From: Blastocatellia bacterium
GTDB lineage: Bacteria > Acidobacteriota > Blastocatellia > HR10 > J050
Length of the DNA stretch: 41,954 nucleotides
Reading direction: 5' to 3'
Assembly: GCA_025054955.1 (NCBI GenBank)
Contig: JANWZE010000038.1
Coordinates: forward strand, 1 to 41,954
Shown: positions 2,874 through 41,695 of the stretch, piece by piece
Layout: each line of letters opens with the position of its first letter
How positions within the stretch are numbered: the first letter of the stretch is position 1
Program-made: the position numbers and the translations under genes
The notes under the pieces: model-generated
What the model was told of the DNA's origin: nothing
Databases searched by the model: none
The model's input: only the letters and a program-made list of their open reading frames with translations

Positions 2874-3554
2874 ATGACTGATTTTGTTTTGAGATCGCAC
2901 GCATTGCATCGGGCCGCTCGGATCGGCCCTTGGCAGGTCGTGTTGGCCTCTCTTGCGATCATCAGCATGGGCGCGGCAGGTTTCTTTTATGTGCAAAACA
3001 GGCTGGCTGAGCAACAGCTCAATCAAGCTCAGGCGCGATACCAACAAGATCAAGCGACGCTCAATCAGTTGACCGAGCGGGTGAAAGAGATCGAGGCCCT
3101 TGAAAAAATTGATGTGCCTACGCCTGAGGCGATTCGCGCCAGTCTGGTCAAGTTTCAGGAGACATATCTATCCCCTGCGGAGACTGCTCAATTGCGCGCG
3201 ATTCGGGAAGTCAATCAGTTGGCCAAACAAAGTGGTGTTCTTGTCACAGAGATCAATTTCACAGCCATTGAGCAGCGGGCATTGCAAGGGGAAGCGGAAG
3301 GCGTCAAGAGCGCCAAGTCATTGTTTCCCGGGTTGGAGATGTCGTTCACAGTTGAGGGCAGCTACAGTAGTGTGCGGCAGTTTTTGGCTTCATTGGAGCG
3401 AAGTCGCGTCTTCATCATCGTTGATGCGCTGGAGCTGAAGAGCGTGGAGTCATCTGCTTCAGATGGACGAGGTCGCCAAGCCGGAGCTGCCACCGATCAA
3501 GTGATTGCATTAGGTCTCAAGCTGGCGGTGTATTATCAACGCGAGGTGTCATGA
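2874..3554 (+). CDS. pilO: PilO/GspM-like assembly protein
   Basis: 226 residues: one membrane segment (about 22-44), a coiled coil (about 45-85) and a compact periplasmic domain, typical of PilO/GspM. It follows pilN and overlaps the next gene by 4 bp (ATGA), suggesting coupled translation. PilO pairs with PilN to form the periplasmic alignment complex that links the inner-membrane platform to the secretin. The ribosome binding site (GAGGTGAG) lies just after the end of repeat copy 1. Confidence 0.75.
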   Translation: MTDFVLRSHALHRAARIGPWQVVLASLAIISMGAAGFFYVQNRLAEQQLNQAQARYQQDQATLNQLTERVKEIEALEKIDVPTPEAIRASLVKFQETYLSPAETAQLRAIREVNQLAKQSGVLVTEINFTAIEQRALQGEAEGVKSAKSLFPGLEMSFTVEGSYSSVRQFLASLERSRVFIIVDALELKSVESSASDGRGRQAGAATDQVIALGLKLAVYYQREVS

Positions 3555-4558
3555 CAAAAGAGAGAAAAGTTTTGCTAGGCTTATTAGCAGTGGCTGCTGG
3601 CGTCTTGCTGGTAGACCGATTTATTTTGTCTGATCAGGCGACCGGATCAACGGCCACGAACACAGCGAGGGCGTCAGCGCCGCCTGGCGGAAATCAAGCC
3701 AACCGCAAACCCTCTTCGAGGGAAATCCGAAATCCCAAATCCGAAGTCCGAAACGGTTCGGATTTGGGATTTCGTGCTTCGGATTTCCCCGCAGGGGCTT
3801 CTGAGGTCGAGCAGGGGTATCGTCCGTTGCCGTTGCACGTGCTGGCTCGGCGCGATGGTGTCACGGAGCAAGCGAGTCGAAACGTGTTTGTTTATTACGT
3901 GCCGCCGCCGCCACCGGTCAAACCGCCGCCACCGCCGCCACCGCCGCCGCTGGCGATTTACTCGCTGGAGCCACATTCGGTTTACGCCAGGACAAAAGAT
4001 TTCACGCTTACGGTCAAGGGCGCTCGGTTTCCCGAAGACGCGCAGATCGTTGTCAATGGGCGTCCTCTGAAGACGGAGCGCGTCAGCGAGGTCGAGCTGA
4101 GGGCCACTGTTGACAAGCGGATGATTGCCACGGCTGCGCCGCTTCAAGTGATGGTTAGGAATTCGACTGGAGAGCTCTACTCGAACCAATTGACGCTGGC
4201 TGTTCAAGAGCCAGAGCCACCGCGATACCGCTACCTTGGCCGTGTTGATGATCTTGTGTTCTTGCTCAAGAGTGATAACGAGCGCCTGGTGGCTCGCCTC
4301 AATGGCCAGTTGGTGGAGAACCGCTGGCTTGTCACGCAGGTATCGGCCGAGCGCGTTGTGCTCAAGGATGTGACATTGGATATCCTGCACACGCTGCCGA
4401 TCGAAGACGCGGACGCAAGCCCAGGCGGTCAAGTTGGCGGCGTGCTTAGTCCGAACCAGGGCAACATCAATCGCGGCCGTAATCCACGTTCAAACGTGAG
4501 GGTGACGGATATGCAGCCGGCAGAACCGGTCTCAGCCGAGGATGAAGAACCGCGATGA
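3551..4558 (+). CDS. GspC/PilP-like secretin-linking protein with IPT/TIG-like domain and an in-frame repeat
   Basis: 335 residues. Residues 5-25 form a membrane anchor. Residues 54-83 are encoded by a copy of the heptad palindromic element inserted in frame. A proline tract (VPPPPPVKPPPPPPPPP) follows near residues 117-133. Residues about 135-218 resemble an IPT/TIG immunoglobulin-like domain (LTVKGARFPEDAQIVVNG). Residues about 222-285 (RYLGRVDDLVFLL...) look like the GspC/PilP homology region that contacts the secretin. The gene overlaps pilO and the next gene by ATGA junctions. Role inferred: inner-membrane protein reaching through the periplasm to GspD. The TIG insertion and the repeat-encoded linker are unusual for the family. 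Confidence 0.6.
   Translation: MTKERKVLLGLLAVAAGVLLVDRFILSDQATGSTATNTARASAPPGGNQANRKPSSREIRNPKSEVRNGSDLGFRASDFPAGASEVEQGYRPLPLHVLARRDGVTEQASRNVFVYYVPPPPPVKPPPPPPPPPLAIYSLEPHSVYARTKDFTLTVKGARFPEDAQIVVNGRPLKTERVSEVELRATVDKRMIATAAPLQVMVRNSTGELYSNQLTLAVQEPEPPRYRYLGRVDDLVFLLKSDNERLVARLNGQLVENRWLVTQVSAERVVLKDVTLDILHTLPIEDADASPGGQVGGVLSPNQGNINRGRNPRSNVRVTDMQPAEPVSAEDEEPR
3710..3797 (+). repeat. Heptad palindromic element, copy 2 (inside coding sequence)
   Basis: Complete 88-bp copy, A end to B end, fully inside the GspC/PilP-like gene and translated without a stop. It encodes residues 54-83, in the linker between the membrane anchor and the proline tract. Confidence 0.95.
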
Positions 4559-5559
4559 GAGGTGAAGCATTGCCCCTGCGGGGAAATTCGAAATCCCCAA
4601 TCCGAAACGTTTCGAATTTCGATATTCGGATTTCGGATTTCCCTCCAACAGGGTCTCAGGCAGGTTACATGCTGATTGTTACGCTCGGTATGCTCACCGT
4701 GTTTTTGGTGCTGGCTGCCGGCATTGCGCCGTCGGTGGCGCAAGAGTTGCGGCGCGAACGTGAGACGGAGATGCTCTTTCGGGGGCAGCAGATTGTTGAC
4801 GCCATTGGGCGGTATAGGATTTTGGCTCAGCGCATCATGGCCGCTGGCGGCGCTGAGCAGCAGCCGCCTGTCGTGCCAGGAGGACAAGCTGTGCCTGGCG
4901 CGGTCGGATTCGGTTGGCCGCAATCGTTGGAGCAATTGGTTGATGGCGTCAACGTGCGCGGCTCCACGCGCAAAGTGCGCCTGCTTCGACCATTCGCATT
5001 GAAGGACCCGGTCAACGGCAACAAACCGTGGCGACCGGTCGGATTCAATGATGAGGCATTACGGGAATTTCTGGAGGCGTACTTTGAGACGATGGGTCAG
5101 CCGCTCTCGGTTTGGCCGCCACAGTTTCGCATGCAGTATTTGGGCAATACGGTTGAGTTGGGTCGAGGCGACAGCGGCAGCGCCCGCGGCAGGGCGCCTT
5201 CTGCGTTCAGGGGACCGGCCACTGATGGACAGGATGCTCAGCCACGCTACATCTTCGGTGTGGTGAGTGAAAGCGACGAGGAGCCACTGCGGGATTATTA
5301 CGGCCTGGAGCGGTATAACCGATGGGTCTTCGCGTTTATCCCTGAGCTGCAGTCGGTCCCGGCGGATATGGACAAACAGATCGAAATGCTCAGCCGCGAA
5401 GTGATATATCCGACGGACCCGCTGGCTTTGAGGCAACTGGGCGGGGCATTTCGGCCGATCGCTCCGGTTGGACAGGTGCCTGGCCAAGCGCCTCCGGGCG
5501 GAGCGGCCAACGCTCCAGGTCCTGCAACGCCACCCAGCGGCAAACCGCCGATTCGATGA
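4555..5559 (+). CDS. Pseudopilin-like protein with repeat-encoded leader
   Basis: 334 residues. The start ATG overlaps the previous stop (ATGA). The likely prepilin-type site is G37|Y38 (QAG|YMLIVTLGM), followed by a hydrophobic N-helix and a charged segment (QELRRERETEMLFRGQQIVD). Position +5 is Val rather than the usual Glu, as in GspK-type minor pseudopilins. Size also fits GspK better than GspG, but the family is not established. The body (about 60-300) is unassigned and the C-terminus is proline-rich. Residues 7-33 of the leader are exactly one copy of the heptad element. No ATG, GTG or TTG occurs in frame between the repeat and Y38, so the repeat must be translated unless initiation is at the internal ATG 4669, which would remove the cleavage site. 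Confidence 0.6.
   Translation: MRGEALPLRGNSKSPIRNVSNFDIRISDFPPTGSQAGYMLIVTLGMLTVFLVLAAGIAPSVAQELRRERETEMLFRGQQIVDAIGRYRILAQRIMAAGGAEQQPPVVPGGQAVPGAVGFGWPQSLEQLVDGVNVRGSTRKVRLLRPFALKDPVNGNKPWRPVGFNDEALREFLEAYFETMGQPLSVWPPQFRMQYLGNTVELGRGDSGSARGRAPSAFRGPATDGQDAQPRYIFGVVSESDEEPLRDYYGLERYNRWVFAFIPELQSVPADMDKQIEMLSREVIYPTDPLALRQLGGAFRPIAPVGQVPGQAPPGGAANAPGPATPPSGKPPIR
4573..4653 (-). repeat. Heptad palindromic element, copy 3 (inside coding sequence)
   Basis: Complete 81-bp copy (27 codons), B end first, with a variant A end (CCCTCCAACAGGG). It encodes leader residues 7-33 of the pseudopilin-like protein. Confidence 0.9.
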
Positions 5560-8427: not shown

Positions 8428-8430
8428 GAT

Positions 8431-8511
8431 CCCTCTTGGAGGGAAATCCGAAATCCAAAGCACGAAATCCGAAACGATTGGGATTTGGGATTTCGGATTT
8501 CCCCGCAGGGG
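8431..8511 (+). repeat. Heptad palindromic element, copy 4
   Basis: Complete 81-bp copy, A end (loop variant CCCTCTTGGAGGG) to B end, immediately after the gspE stop. Its B end continues into the tail block at 8512. Confidence 0.95.
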
Positions 8512-8592
8512 TTACGGATCACGGATCACAAATTCTGTGCTAAGCTGTGTGATCTATGGTTTCATTCCACAGATTACGGATCGAGGAACCAT
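8512..8592 (+). repeat. Tail block of the heptad element (GGATCAC units plus unique part)
   Basis: Starts TTACGGATCACGGATCAC, continues with AATTCTGTGCTAAGCTGTGT and ends near ATTACGGATCGAGG. An inverted, closely related copy lies at 33793-33897. Both abut the B end of a heptad element. Confidence 0.8.
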
Positions 8593-11139: not shown

Positions 11140-11220
11140 CCCCTGCTGGGAAATCCGAAGCACGAAATCCCAAATCCGAAACGTTTCGGATTTCGATATT
11201 CGGATTTCCCTCGAAGAGGG
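11140..11220 (-). repeat. Heptad palindromic element, copy 5
   Basis: Complete 81-bp copy, B end (CCCCTGCTGGG) to A end, filling the gspD-gspG gap. Its A end supplies GAAGAGGG directly before the gspG start. Confidence 0.95.
11213..11220 (+). promoter_or_regulatory. Ribosome binding site formed by the repeat end
   Basis: GAAGAGGG, the distal half of the A-type hairpin, lies 3 nt before the ATG at 11224. It is the only purine-rich Shine-Dalgarno candidate there; the spacing is short if pairing uses the last G residues but acceptable if it uses GAAGAGG. Confidence 0.4.
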
Positions 11221-11223
11221 CTA

Positions 11224-11718: not shown

Positions 11719-12210
11719 ATGACCAAGATGGAATCCAACAAGCCCCTGCGGGGAAATCCCAAGCACGAAATCCGAAATTCGAAACGTTTCGGATTTCGGA
11801 TTTGGGATTTCGGATTTCCCTCAAAGAGGGCTCGCGGTTTCACATTGCTTGAATTGATCATTGTGCTGGTGGTCATCTCGGTCTTGCTCTCGGTAGCCAT
11901 TCCGCGCTATCAGGAAACGATTCGAGCAGCCAAGGAGAGCGTGCTCAAACAGAATTTGTATTTAATGCGTCGGCAGATCGAAGCGTTCGCTGCTGACAAC
12001 GGACGTTACCCGGACTCGCTTCAGCAACTTGTCGAGAAAGGCTACTTGCGAGAGATTCCGCTGGACCCGATTACCGATTCGCGGGAAACGTGGCAGGAGA
12101 TCAGAGAAGACAGCACCGGCCTTGGCTCGACCAGTCAACCGGGGATTGTGGATGTGCGCAGTGGCGCGGAGGGCGAATCATTGGAAGGGAAGCCCTATAG
12201 TGAATTGTGA
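11719..12210 (+). CDS. Second GspG-like pseudopilin with a 40-residue repeat-encoded leader
   Basis: 163 residues. The prepilin site is RARG40|FTLLELIIVLVVISVLL, with Glu at +5. A soluble domain with NLYLMRRQIEAFAADNGRYP and IPLDPITDSRETWQE follows, as in GspG. The C-terminus (VDVRSGAEGESLEGKPYSEL) parallels the GspG end. The leader is far longer than the five residues of its neighbour because it contains a full heptad element (about residues 9-37). The only usual start codons before the cleavage site are ATG 11719 and ATG 11728, both upstream of the element, so the element must be translated if the gene works. Cleavage would then discard it. Confidence 0.85.
   Translation: MTKMESNKPLRGNPKHEIRNSKRFGFRIWDFGFPSKRARGFTLLELIIVLVVISVLLSVAIPRYQETIRAAKESVLKQNLYLMRRQIEAFAADNGRYPDSLQQLVEKGYLREIPLDPITDSRETWQEIREDSTGLGSTSQPGIVDVRSGAEGESLEGKPYSEL
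11743..11830 (-). repeat. Heptad palindromic element, copy 6 (inside coding sequence)
   Basis: Complete 88-bp copy, B end to A end (loop variant CCCTCAAAGAGGG), inside the leader region of the second GspG-like gene. Confidence 0.95.
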
Positions 12211-12252
12211 ACGAGTGAAGCTGTGTTTCTTGCGTCGTTGACGCTGCCGAAG

Positions 12253-12340
12253 CCCTCTTCGAGGGAACTTCCAAATCCCAAATCGGAAATCCGAAACGTT
12301 TGGGATTTCGGATTTGGGATTTCGGATTTCCCCGTAGGGG
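12253..12340 (+). repeat. Heptad palindromic element, copy 7
   Basis: Complete 88-bp copy, A end to B end (loop variant CCCCGTAGGGG), between the second pseudopilin and the PilM-like gene. Confidence 0.95.
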
Positions 12341-13316: not shown

Positions 13317-13436
13317 CCCCTGCGGGGAAATCCGAAATCCCAAATCCGAAATCCCAAACGTTTCGGATTTGGGATTTGGGATTTGGGATTTGGAAGTTCC
13401 CTCGAAGAGAGCTTGGGATTTCCCTCAAACAGGAGG
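13317..13436 (-). repeat. Heptad palindromic element, copy 8 (95 bp plus duplicated A end)
   Basis: B end at 13317, A end (CCCTCGAAGAGAG) ending 13411: 95 bp, one 7-nt unit longer than the 88-bp form. A further A-like end follows at 13412-13436 after CTTGGGATTT. Upstream, GATCACGGTAG abuts the B end. Confidence 0.9.
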
Positions 13437-15509: not shown

Positions 15510-15648
15510 CCCTCTTCGAGGGAAATCCCAAGCCCTCTTCGAGGGAAATCCGAAGCACGAAATCCCAAATCCGAACCGTTTCGGATTTCGATATTCGGAT
15601 TTCGGATTTCCCCGCAGAGGTTATGGATCACGAGTCACGAATCCCGGA
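15510..15648 (+). repeat. Heptad palindromic element, copy 9, with duplicated A end and tail
   Basis: An extra 23-bp A-end unit (15510-15532) precedes a complete 88-bp element (15533-15620, B end CCCCGCAGAGG). The B end continues into a short GGATCAC-type tail (15621-15648) that overlaps the folE start region. Confidence 0.9.
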
Positions 15649-16240: not shown

Positions 16241-16374
16241 CCCTCTTCAGCCCTCTTCGAGGGAAATTCCAAATCCGAAGCACGAAATCCGAAACGTTTG
16301 GGATTTCGGATTTCGTGCTTGGGATTTCCCCGCAGGGGCTTGGGATTTCCCCGCAGGGGTTACGAATCACGAAA
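16241..16374 (+). repeat. Heptad palindromic element, copy 10, in a convergent gene gap
   Basis: Complete 88-bp element (16251-16338) with a partial extra A end (16241-16250), an extra 21-bp B end (16339-16359) and a short tail (TTACGAATCACG) to 16374. It fills the whole space between the folE stop and the oppC stop, so its hairpins could end transcription from both sides. Confidence 0.92.
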
Positions 16375-20450: not shown

Positions 20451-20554
20451 CCCCTGCGGGGAAATCCGAAATCCGAAGCACGAAATCCGAAACGTTTCGG
20501 ATTTGGGATTTCGGATTTCCCTCGAAGAGGGCTTGGGATTTCCCTGGAAGAGGG
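20451..20554 (-). repeat. Heptad palindromic element, copy 11, with duplicated A end
   Basis: Complete 81-bp element (20451-20531, B end to A end) plus an extra 23-bp A-end unit (20532-20554, CCCTGGAAGAGGG). Confidence 0.93.
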
Positions 20555-31528: not shown

Positions 31529-31585
31529 CCCTCTTCGAGGGAAATCCGCCAGCCCGAATATCGAAATCCCAAACGTTTCGAATTG
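31529..31585 (+). repeat. Heptad palindromic element, copy 12 (3'-truncated)
   Basis: A end and left arm to AAACGTTTCGAATT; the right arm and B end are missing. It is the only copy between about 20.6 and 32.9 kb and it sits directly after the ABC ATPase fragment. Confidence 0.85.
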
Positions 31586-32937: not shown

Positions 32938-33024
32938 CCCCTGCGGGGAAATCCGAAATTCCAAATCCGAAATCCAAATGTTTGGAATTTCGGATTTCGT
33001 GCTTGGGATTTCCCTCGAAGAGGG
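32938..33024 (-). repeat. Heptad palindromic element, copy 13
   Basis: 87-bp copy (one base short of 88), B end to A end, just downstream of the response regulator gene. Confidence 0.92.
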
Positions 33025-33047
33025 TCTCGTGGTCTGATGTCTGAAGG

Positions 33048-33792: not shown

Positions 33793-33897
33793 GTTGTCAT
33801 TTTTGGGGGGCGCATTCCGTGATCCGTGATCCGTAGAATAGAGCCACAGATTACACAGATTAGCACAGAATTCGTGATCCATGATTCGTGACCGTAA
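33793..33897 (-). repeat. Tail block of the heptad element, inverted copy
   Basis: On the - strand it reads TTACGGTCACGAATCATGG, then CACGAATTCTGTGCTAATCT and ends with GGATCACGGATCACGG. It matches the block at 8512-8592 and abuts the B end of copy 14. Confidence 0.8.
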
Positions 33898-33983
33898 TCC
33901 CTGCGGGGAAATCTGAAATTCCAAATCCGAAATCCCAAACGTTTCGGATTTCGGATTTCGTGCTTCGAATTTCCCCGCAGGGG
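33898..33983. repeat. Heptad palindromic element, copy 14 (two B ends)
   Basis: The only complete copy with B-type hairpins on both sides (first base variant, TCCCTGCGGGG, and CCCCGCAGGGG). Its 86 bp equals 88 minus the 2-bp difference between A and B ends, so the core length is the standard one. Confidence 0.9.
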
Positions 33984-37276: not shown

Positions 37277-37364
37277 CCCCTCCGGGGAAATCCGAAATTC
37301 GAAGCACGAAATCCCAAACGTTTCGGATTTGGGATTTCGTGCTTCGGATTTCCCGCGAAGAGGG
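37277..37364 (-). repeat. Heptad palindromic element, copy 15
   Basis: Complete 88-bp copy, B end (loop variant CCCCTCCGGGG) to A end (CCCGCGAAGAGGG), between gltS and the sensor kinase gene. Confidence 0.92.
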
Positions 37365-37376
37365 TGCTGTCGCCGG

Positions 37377-39244: not shown

Positions 39245-39364
39245 GGTTGATGAGCGGACATTGTGTCTTATCCGGTCGGTCAAGGCAACACCACAACCAG
39301 TCAAGGAAGGATCGAAGCCGTACAAAAATCCTACAGTCCGTGGACCGTGGACCAGAGAAAGCTC

Positions 39365-39455
39365 AAGCACGAAATCCGAAATTCGAAACGTTTGGGATTT
39401 CGGATTTGAAATTTCAGATTTCCCCGCAGGGGTTACCGATCACGAATCACGAATA
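39365..39455 (+). repeat. Heptad palindromic element, copy 16 (5'-truncated) with tail
   Basis: The A end is missing; the core and B end (39422-39432) are intact and continue into a GTTACCGATCACGAATCACG tail to about 39455. Confidence 0.88.
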
Positions 39456-39552: not shown

Positions 39553-39685
39553 CCCTCTTCGAGGGAAATCCCAAGCCCTCTTCGAGGGAAATCCGAAGCA
39601 CGAAATCCCAAATCCGAAACGTTTCGGATTTCGTGCTTCGAATTTCGGAATTTCCCCGCAGGGGCTTGGGATTTTCCCGCAGGGG
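39553..39685 (+). repeat. Heptad palindromic element, copy 17, both ends duplicated
   Basis: Extra A unit of 23 bp (39553-39575), main element 39576-39664 (89 bp), extra B unit of 21 bp (39665-39685). It lies just before the peptidase ribosome binding site. Confidence 0.93.
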
Positions 39686-39708: not shown

Positions 39709-41604
39709 ATGAAAACGCGCTATTGGCTCGTAATTGCTTTAGTCATTGTCACGATGGGGTTGGCTTTGAGGGTGACCTCTTCGGAGTACGGCGACAAACG
39801 AACGTTCGTCGTGTCTGCGATCACGCCGCAAGAACTCTACTGGCATATTCGCTACCTGGCTTCTGATGATTTGAAGGGACGATTCACCGGCACGCCTGAA
39901 GCGCGGGAAGCGGCTCGCTACATTGCTGATGAGTTCCGCTCGTATGGAGTGAAGCCGTTGGGCGATGCCGTCGGCAGCAGCTACTTTCAGACGTTCCCCT
40001 TTATTGCTGGCGTGAAATTAGGGGAGAAGAACCATCTGTCATCGAACATGGCCGGTCGCGCACGGCAGTGGACGCTCAAACAGGATTTCATGCCGATGGC
40101 GTTTTCTGCGCCGATGTCGGTTGAAGGTGAAGTGGTGTTTGCCGGCTATGGCATTTCGGCCACAGACCTCGGGTATGACGATTATGCCGGAATAGAGGTG
40201 GCCGGTCGCATCGTCATGGTGCTGCGGCACTCGCCTGAAGGGGATCATCCGCACAGCCGATTTGAGCGACATGCCAGTTTGCGGGCCAAGGCCTTGATGG
40301 CGCGTCAGCGGGGAGCCAGGGCGATTATCTTCATCGCCGACGACGAGGATTTCAAGAACAACAAGCTGGCGCAGTTGGAATTTGATTACAGCTTTTCTGA
40401 TGCCGGCATTGTGGCTGTGGGCGTGAGCCGTCAACTGGCTCGCGAGTGGATCGCATCCAGTGGGGCTAACCTGGATGAGTTGCAGAATCAAATCAACCAG
40501 CAGCAGAAGCCCAGTTCGCGGGTGCTCACGGGCGTGACAGCCAGCGTGCAGGTTGATCTGGTGAAGGACACGCAGCCGGCTGACAATGTCATCGGCTACA
40601 TCGAGGGCAACGATCCAAATCTGAAGCACGAGGTTGTCATTATCGGCGCTCATTATGATCATCTTGGGTTAGGTGGGCCAAGCTCGCTTGCGCCGCAGCA
40701 ACGTGGCGAAGTGCATAACGGCGCTGATGACAATGCGTCAGGCACGGCTGGGTTACTGGAATTAGCGCAGCTTTGCGCGGCTCGACGGTCTGAACTCAAG
40801 CGCAGTCTGTTATTCATCGCGTTTTCCGGCGAAGAAGAGGGATTGCTCGGATCAAACTATTACGTCAAACATCCGGTCATTCCGTTGGAGCGCACCATTG
40901 CCATGCTCAACATGGATATGATCGGGCGGCTCAAGGAGAACACGTTGAACGTGCAGGGTGTTGGCACGTCGCCGCAATGGCCTGCCTTGTTGGAAGAAGT
41001 CAATCGTGACTTATCGCAGCCGGCTGCCGGTTCATCGCCCGAATCACGGATCACGAATCACGACCCAGGGACCACGAGGTTCACGTTGAAGCTCACTTCT
41101 GACGGAGCCGGTCCAAGCGATCATGCAGCATTTTATCTGAAAGACATCCCCGTCTTGTTCTTCTTCACCGGCACGCATAGCGACTATCACAAGCCATCGG
41201 ATGATTTCGACAAGATCAATGCCGAAGGGCAAGCGCGTGTGGTTCAGTTCATTTACGACACGTTGATGAAGATTCAGGCGCTACCGACGCGACCATCGTT
41301 CACCAAGACGCAATCGTCTGAGATGGGCCGCCGCGGTTTCCGCGTCACGTTCGGGGTGATGCCTGATTATGCCGAAGAGGCAGAGGGCATGAAGATTTCC
41401 GGCGTGCGCGAAGGCAGCGCGGCTGAGAAAGCTGGTTTGAAGGCCGGCGATGTGCTGGTTCGCATTGGCGCCACCAAGATCAAAAACGTCCATGATTACA
41501 TGTTTGTGCTTGGCGAATTGAAAGCCGGCGAAGCCGTCGAGGTCGAAGTCATCAGAGAGGGGCGACGGTTGGTATTTAATGTTGTGCCCGAAAAGAGAAA
41601 CTGA
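39709..41604 (+). CDS. M28-family zinc aminopeptidase with PA and PDZ domains
   Basis: 631 residues; GGGAGGGAG lies just before the ATG. N-terminal membrane anchor or signal (WLVIALVIVTMGLALRV). A PA domain is inserted (about 140-260; VEGEVVFAGYGISATDLGYD). Zinc and catalytic residues of M28: H315 (GAHYDHLG), D340 (NGADDNASG), E375/E376 (FSGEEEGLLG), D403 (LNMDMIG) and H494 (GTHSDYHKPSDD). A PDZ domain (about 540-628; GVREGSAAEKAGLKAGDVLV) ends the protein. Residues about 445-457 (ESRITNHDPGTTR) are encoded by a GGATCAC/GAATCAC heptad tract between conserved segments. It probably trims peptides in the periplasm. Confidence 0.92.
   Translation: MKTRYWLVIALVIVTMGLALRVTSSEYGDKRTFVVSAITPQELYWHIRYLASDDLKGRFTGTPEAREAARYIADEFRSYGVKPLGDAVGSSYFQTFPFIAGVKLGEKNHLSSNMAGRARQWTLKQDFMPMAFSAPMSVEGEVVFAGYGISATDLGYDDYAGIEVAGRIVMVLRHSPEGDHPHSRFERHASLRAKALMARQRGARAIIFIADDEDFKNNKLAQLEFDYSFSDAGIVAVGVSRQLAREWIASSGANLDELQNQINQQQKPSSRVLTGVTASVQVDLVKDTQPADNVIGYIEGNDPNLKHEVVIIGAHYDHLGLGGPSSLAPQQRGEVHNGADDNASGTAGLLELAQLCAARRSELKRSLLFIAFSGEEEGLLGSNYYVKHPVIPLERTIAMLNMDMIGRLKENTLNVQGVGTSPQWPALLEEVNRDLSQPAAGSSPESRITNHDPGTTRFTLKLTSDGAGPSDHAAFYLKDIPVLFFFTGTHSDYHKPSDDFDKINAEGQARVVQFIYDTLMKIQALPTRPSFTKTQSSEMGRRGFRVTFGVMPDYAEEAEGMKISGVREGSAAEKAGLKAGDVLVRIGATKIKNVHDYMFVLGELKAGEAVEVEVIREGRRLVFNVVPEKRN
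41041..41079 (+). repeat. Tail-type heptad tract inside the M28 peptidase gene
   Basis: GAATCAC-GGATCAC-GAATCAC-GACCCAG units continue the reading frame. Three 7-nt units are 21 bp (seven codons), which keeps the frame. Confidence 0.7.
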
Positions 41605-41607
41605 AAA

Positions 41608-41695
41608 CCCTCTTCGAGGGAAATTCCAAGCACGAAATCCCAAATCCGAAACGTTTCGGATTTCGTGCTTCGGGTTTCGGATTTCCCCGCAGGGG
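41608..41695 (+). repeat. Heptad palindromic element, copy 18, in a convergent gene gap
   Basis: Complete 88-bp copy filling the space between the peptidase stop (41604) and the kinase stop (41696). Its hairpins could serve as a two-way terminator. Confidence 0.95.

Follow-up and report, generated by a model that had tools for sequence, protein, structure and literature searches.

The palindromic elements of Rickettsia (RPE-1 to RPE-3) and Wolbachia are found in many copies and lie in frame within unrelated genes, which are not destroyed by them (PMC3767692, PMC10969869). REPINs consist of two inverted end modules and a spacer, form one long single-stranded DNA hairpin, and are present in many dispersed copies and in clusters (PMC3116915). 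PARCELs are palindromic stretches of protein-coding DNA that are apparently spreading (PMC2996958), and the TAACTGA repeats of Beggiatoaceae are 7-bp units that are reiterated and scattered over a bacterial genome (PMC4679880).

The window considered here is a stretch of 41,954 nucleotides, positions 1 to 41,954 of contig JANWZE010000038.1 (C38) in the draft assembly GCA_025054955.1 of a Blastocatellia bacterium. It contains about 18 copies or part copies of a short palindrome, one of which lies within a PilP/GspC-like gene. The arms of this palindrome are built of 7-bp units; reiterated, dispersed units of this length are also found in the cyanobacterial STRR sequences. However, the TAACTGA and STRR repeats are direct arrays, whereas here the heptamers form inverted arms that are flanked by mini-hairpins. 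In PARCELs, domains of 25 residues follow one another in tandem within ORFs that have no assigned function, in contrast to the single insertions in unrelated conserved genes described below. With the Rickettsia and Wolbachia elements the family shares its similar size, palindromic structure, high copy number, and in-frame location in pre-existing unrelated genes, but it differs in the heptamer arms, the terminal mini-hairpins, the bacterial class, and the restriction to a part of one genome. In addition, of the RPEs first reported, almost half were intragenic, whereas the copies here are mostly intergenic. The initial annotation had compared the PilP copy with the Rickettsia elements in concept, a likeness that holds, and the same element is found in frame in several other genes. 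It is a likeness of behavior, and the element cannot be classed as one of the RPEs. The inverted end modules and the single long hairpin of similar size are features of REPINs, but the 7-bp-unit arms, the intragenic copies, and the lack of a copy-flanked RAYT gene are not. A tally of the flanks outside the copy ends shows no fixed tetranucleotide that would correspond to the GTAG/CGTC tag of REPINs.

The copy in the PilP/GspC-like gene has the following organization.

3551 to 4558, plus strand: host gene for a PilP/GspC-like inner-membrane protein, syntenic with the relative G001
3710 to 3797, plus strand: repeat copy of 88 bp, in frame in the PilP/GspC-like gene, residues 54 to 83
3710 to 3722, plus strand: terminal mini-hairpin A, CCCTC-TTC-GAGGG (sequence and family consensus)
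3723 to 3750, plus strand: left arm, four 7-bp units, AAATCCG AAATCCC AAATCCG AAGTCCG
3751 to 3758, plus strand: center, AAACGGTT (family consensus, AAACGTTT)
3759 to 3786, plus strand: right arm, inverted 7-bp units, CGGATTT GGGATTT CGTGCTT CGGATTT
3787 to 3797, plus strand: terminal mini-hairpin B, CCCC-GCA-GGGG (sequence and family consensus)

The same order, mini-hairpin A, 7-bp units, center, inverted units, and mini-hairpin B, is typical of the whole family. An arm usually contains three or four units (AAATCCG, AAATCCC, AAATTCG, AAGCACG, AATATCG, and others), and the arms are imperfect because their units vary from arm to arm and from copy to copy. The commonest lengths, 88 and 81 bp, are one unit apart. 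Tandem extra half-elements or additional terminal units are present in some copies, and a check for terminal inverted repeats shows that the ends are two similar yet distinct mini-hairpins. A nested second form with longer outer ends is found on contigs C47, C40, C130, and C116 and once in another genome, G005, and C26:14300-14800 (L192) contains a long tandem run of half-elements in which a complete center is absent. A second heptamer motif, (GAATCAC/GGATCAC)n, is located at positions 8499 to 8531, 15608 to 15640, 39420 to 39452, and 41031 to 41063 of the window; it often directly adjoins end B of the copies, and one of its strands has stop codons.

Assignment of the host protein as PilP/GspC-like rests on gene order and on its layout (helix, linker, Pro-rich tract, and C-terminal domains), as it has no Pfam match. 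The initial annotation placed the 88-bp copy at residues 54 to 83, between the membrane anchor and the proline tract, and this is exact: the repeat lies inside the ORF at 3551 to 4558, after the N-terminal membrane helix and before the proline tract. It is 92 to 95% identical in DNA sequence to copies elsewhere, with BLAST E values down to 4e-37 and a covariance-model E value of 1.8e-26, and as single-stranded DNA it folds with -31.6 kcal/mol (z = -7.3), values that are far beyond chance. The repeat segment is absent from all 14 aligned homologues. The linker from the helix to the RPLPL motif is 63 residues long here, 53 to 54 in the same-family genomes G001 and G002, and 33 to 40 in seven other members of the order; subtracting the repeat of about 30 residues leaves about 33, which is inside the homologue range. 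Five more distant homologues have neither RPLPL nor the segment, and their distance from the helix to N-[IV]-F is 54 to 67 residues versus 84 here. Thus, the linkers of the homologues are shorter, and the finding that by the initial annotation would have marked the region as ancestral, an unrelated segment of the same length in all orthologues, was not made. The PilP relatives, from the class Blastocatellia of the Acidobacteriota, have genomes of 2.6 to 9.6 Mb, much above the size of Rickettsia genomes.

An ancestral functional linker that resembles the repeats by accident would fit the two closest homologues, whose linkers are merely 9 to 10 residues shorter. However, these linkers are unrelated in sequence and come from genomes with only about 45% identity in PilP, no homologue has related sequence at this place, and the near-identical copies elsewhere are intergenic or lie in unrelated genes. 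The homologue comparison already contradicts such a linker, and this reading is extremely improbable. In PilP the repeat is truly inserted in frame, as in several other cases in this genome, and the 88 bp very probably belong to a non-autonomous palindromic element whose multiplication took place mainly in one genome part of about 190 kb. A clean strain-level empty site was not seen among the PilP homologues aligned. The 30-residue tract would be a tolerated spacer with no functional domain, and it is presumably harmless, since both the ORF and the operon are intact. The AlphaFold model of PilP, computed from the single sequence, has a pLDDT of 46 and is too poor to show disorder of the insert.

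The other copies in the window are as follows.

2800 to 2860, no strand assigned: partial copy between PilN- and PilO-like genes
4570 to 4654, minus strand: second copy, overlapping the start of a pseudopilin-like gene (4555 to 5559)
8430 to 8511, plus strand: copy between GspE/PilB-like and secretin genes
11140 to 11221, minus strand: copy (covariance model)
11743 to 11831, minus strand: copy (covariance model)
12252 to 12340, plus strand: copy (covariance model)
13317 to 13412, minus strand: copy (covariance model)
15532 to 15620, plus strand: copy with a tandem extra terminal hairpin unit, upstream of a FolE-like gene
16250 to 16338, plus strand: copy with a tandem extra terminal unit
20451 to 20532, minus strand: copy with an extra terminal unit
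31530 to 31575, plus strand: half copy, left half only
32938 to 33025, minus strand: copy (covariance model)
33895 to 33983, plus strand: copy with mini-hairpin B at both ends
37277 to 37365, minus strand: copy (covariance model)
39344 to 39435, plus strand: copy with a degenerate left end
39575 to 39664, plus strand: copy with a tandem extra terminal unit
41607 to 41695, plus strand: copy (covariance model)

The first 16 kb or so of the window (15.7 kb) are colinear with G001, and the nine copies located there break none of the genes. The PilN-PilO spacer is 125 bp long here and 19 bp in G001, a difference of 106 bp. In this comparison of spacer lengths with G001 it is the only clear empty site, the other spacers being similar in length and unrelated in sequence.

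At least five further genes contain an in-frame copy with both flanks matching one family, and the element is tolerated in frame in these apparently working genes. The DUF4388-Roadblock gene (C65:420) has 28 residues that are missing from both same-family orthologues. In the sulfatase-like gene (C5:16306), residues 506 to 533 are missing from a paralogue that is located about 4 kb away in the same genome and is 47% identical. The N-terminal half of BchH (C102:9210) shows an insertion relative to ChlH with a net gap of 19 residues, the C-terminal half (C102:6793) matches ChlH on both sides of the copy, and in ChlD (C102:5398) the copy separates the AAA and VWA domains. BchH is divided here between two ORFs next to ChlD (L054, positions 6539 to 10655 of C102), the one for the C-terminal half lying upstream of that for the N-terminal half; a ChlD-like gene was looked for in nine other genomes of the order and found in none of them. 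A squalene-cyclase-like ORF (C5:11404), which has a Pfam match on one flank and is present in no relative, likely carries an in-frame copy as well. Copies are likely found also in leader or signal-peptide regions, namely at position 4570 of the window, where the copy read in frame forms the N-terminal leader of the pseudopilin-like gene, at C134:20365, and at C102:43726. CtaA (C134:21836) was dropped as an intragenic case, because the ChlD-like sequence beyond the copy indicates a junction.

The heptamer arms explain why genes tolerate the element. As 7 is not a multiple of 3, all three frames of a strand run through the same seven codons in an array of heptamers; for AAATCCG the two strands give the cycles (KSEIRNP)n and (RISDFGF)n. 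With one seven-codon cycle per strand, most copies have no stop codon in any frame. The initial annotation had described the core as lacking stop codons in several frames, but the copy at 3710 to 3797 is open in all six. The same is true of 39 of 71 copies, compared with 0.42% of background windows from the same contigs and 0.03% of shuffled copies. Special selection for openness was considered and found unneeded: if random heptamers are repeated in tandem, half of them give arrays that are open in all six frames, so that the design suffices.

The size of the family, its other intragenic copies, and its regional confinement lay beyond the reach of the initial annotation. A covariance model built from 15 window copies matches the genome 149 times; almost all of these matches pair up as opposite strands of the same palindromes, which corresponds to at least about 75 places and establishes that the element has multiplied. 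Its spread is local: about 70 of the roughly 75 copies are found on C38 (the window), C102, C134, C5, C43, and C65, which together comprise 188 kb of 4.69 Mb. The center motif occurs 85 times in these six contigs versus 3 times in about 546 kb of other sampled contigs, counts in which one copy may be counted twice, and two of the three outside motifs are on a contig adjoining C102. A foreign origin of the repeat-rich contigs was rejected, as their base composition equals that of the rest of the genome. The ends of C98 and C43, C5 and C134, C65 and C38, and C102 and C117 overlap, and a 508-bp end segment is common to C43 and C102 (93%). Among 162 genomes of the class, the family is numerous only in that of the window (G000); G005, from another family of the order, has one good copy, G004 has weak copies, and same-family genomes have none. 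The copy at 3710 to 3797 has no match in plasmid and phage collections, Rfam searches show no family match at the gathering score, and the DNA pattern CCTCTTCGAGGGAAATYCSAA is absent from viral contigs. Its one match in GTDB, in a search from which the genome of the window may have been absent, was put down to chance, as no palindrome follows it.

The window also contains iterons, TACAGGGGTTGGGGGCAAG, at positions 5 to 148, which adjoin a gene for a RepA-type initiator (519 to 2054; Pfam RPA and TrfA). G001 and G002 have different iterons with the same order of the RepA and pil genes, and their contigs break there too. A plasmid-type or second-chromosome origin of this region is possible. Confinement to one region that holds the RepA gene and iterons, like the mostly intergenic location of the copies, could mean that the repeats are kept for a function, for instance in the control of mRNA stability by RNA hairpins at operon junctions or as sites for protein binding on one replicon. 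However, the arm units vary freely, RNAalifold finds no compensatory base pairs, copies lie inside unrelated genes, and same-family genomes lack them, which makes retention for function quite improbable.

No target-site duplication above expectation was found for k = 2 to 5 in 31 simple copies (for k = 2, 1 observed versus 1.3 expected). The two Y1-type transposase genes (PF01797) of the genome, on C135 and C75, have no copies nearby, and none of the approximately 44 ORFs of the region that were scanned matches a transposase family in Pfam. The gene on C135 (L046 / L188), which is Y1/RAYT-like, is surrounded on both sides by other short palindromes in tandem, CCAGACGTGAAACGTCTGG and GGCCGCGCAAGCGGCC, which likely represent a separate REP system. 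As both a target duplication and a linked transposase were looked for and not found, the mechanism of copying can only be inferred. The compact inverted-repeat structure, similar ends, and presence in both orientations at distinct scattered sites would suit a classical MITE with mini-hairpins as terminal inverted repeats and a DDE transposase that is now lost or elsewhere. Yet the target-site duplication is absent, a full-length parent element was not seen, and the spread is local, so that a MITE appears improbable.

Local spread is also evident from the relationships between copies, as for 27 of 64 copies the nearest relative is found on the same contig, versus 12.9 expected (p 0.0002). In addition, segments that are 96 to 98% identical end at, or start just past, a copy (C134:21836-22061 with C102:5538-5666 and C134:16479-16991 with C65:1-514). 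These look as if copies may act as recombination points, through rearrangement, although a strain variant or misassembly may produce the same picture. Together with the homology of contig ends as far as a copy, the tandem half-elements, the extra terminal units, and the 7-bp units shuffled between copies, the shared contigs of nearest relatives might reflect heptamer slippage and template switching, with spread by local recombination or gene conversion and no transposition at all. However, complete elements with two mini-hairpins occupy many single sites that are unrelated to each other, some of them within genes that have no element in their homologues, and gene conversion alone cannot produce a new site. 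Such an origin is somewhat unlikely.

Copying through a single-stranded hairpin, as proposed for REPINs and for IS200/IS605-type elements, would fit the hairpin itself, the distinct end mini-hairpins, the half-elements in tandem, the fact that targets are not duplicated, and the local spread. It is a real possibility, if slightly less likely than not, and would involve either an enzyme acting in trans or replication-linked template switching. Insertions would have landed all over the region, and selection would have retained the intergenic copies and those in linkers and loops with a net length that is a multiple of three.

A separate family is found in G082, from the same class. It is unrelated in sequence but has the same heptamer-palindrome design, with AAGTCCC / GGGACTT units at about 40 places; the copies inspected are intergenic, e.g., in the accB/accC spacer. 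A description of heptamer-built palindromes was not found in the open-access literature, which is not proof of absence. Tentatively, such palindromes might represent a general, undescribed kind of mobile repeat that has arisen at least twice, here and in G082. If so, stop-free heptamer units would let an element enter coding DNA in any frame and in either orientation. Intragenic in-frame palindromic repeats are best known from Rickettsia and Wolbachia, and the present case extends them to an unrelated class with larger genomes. The regional confinement of the family also leads one to ask what keeps small repeats from spreading further, and a simple structural reason for the tolerance of genes would make the origin of new protein segments from such repeats testable.
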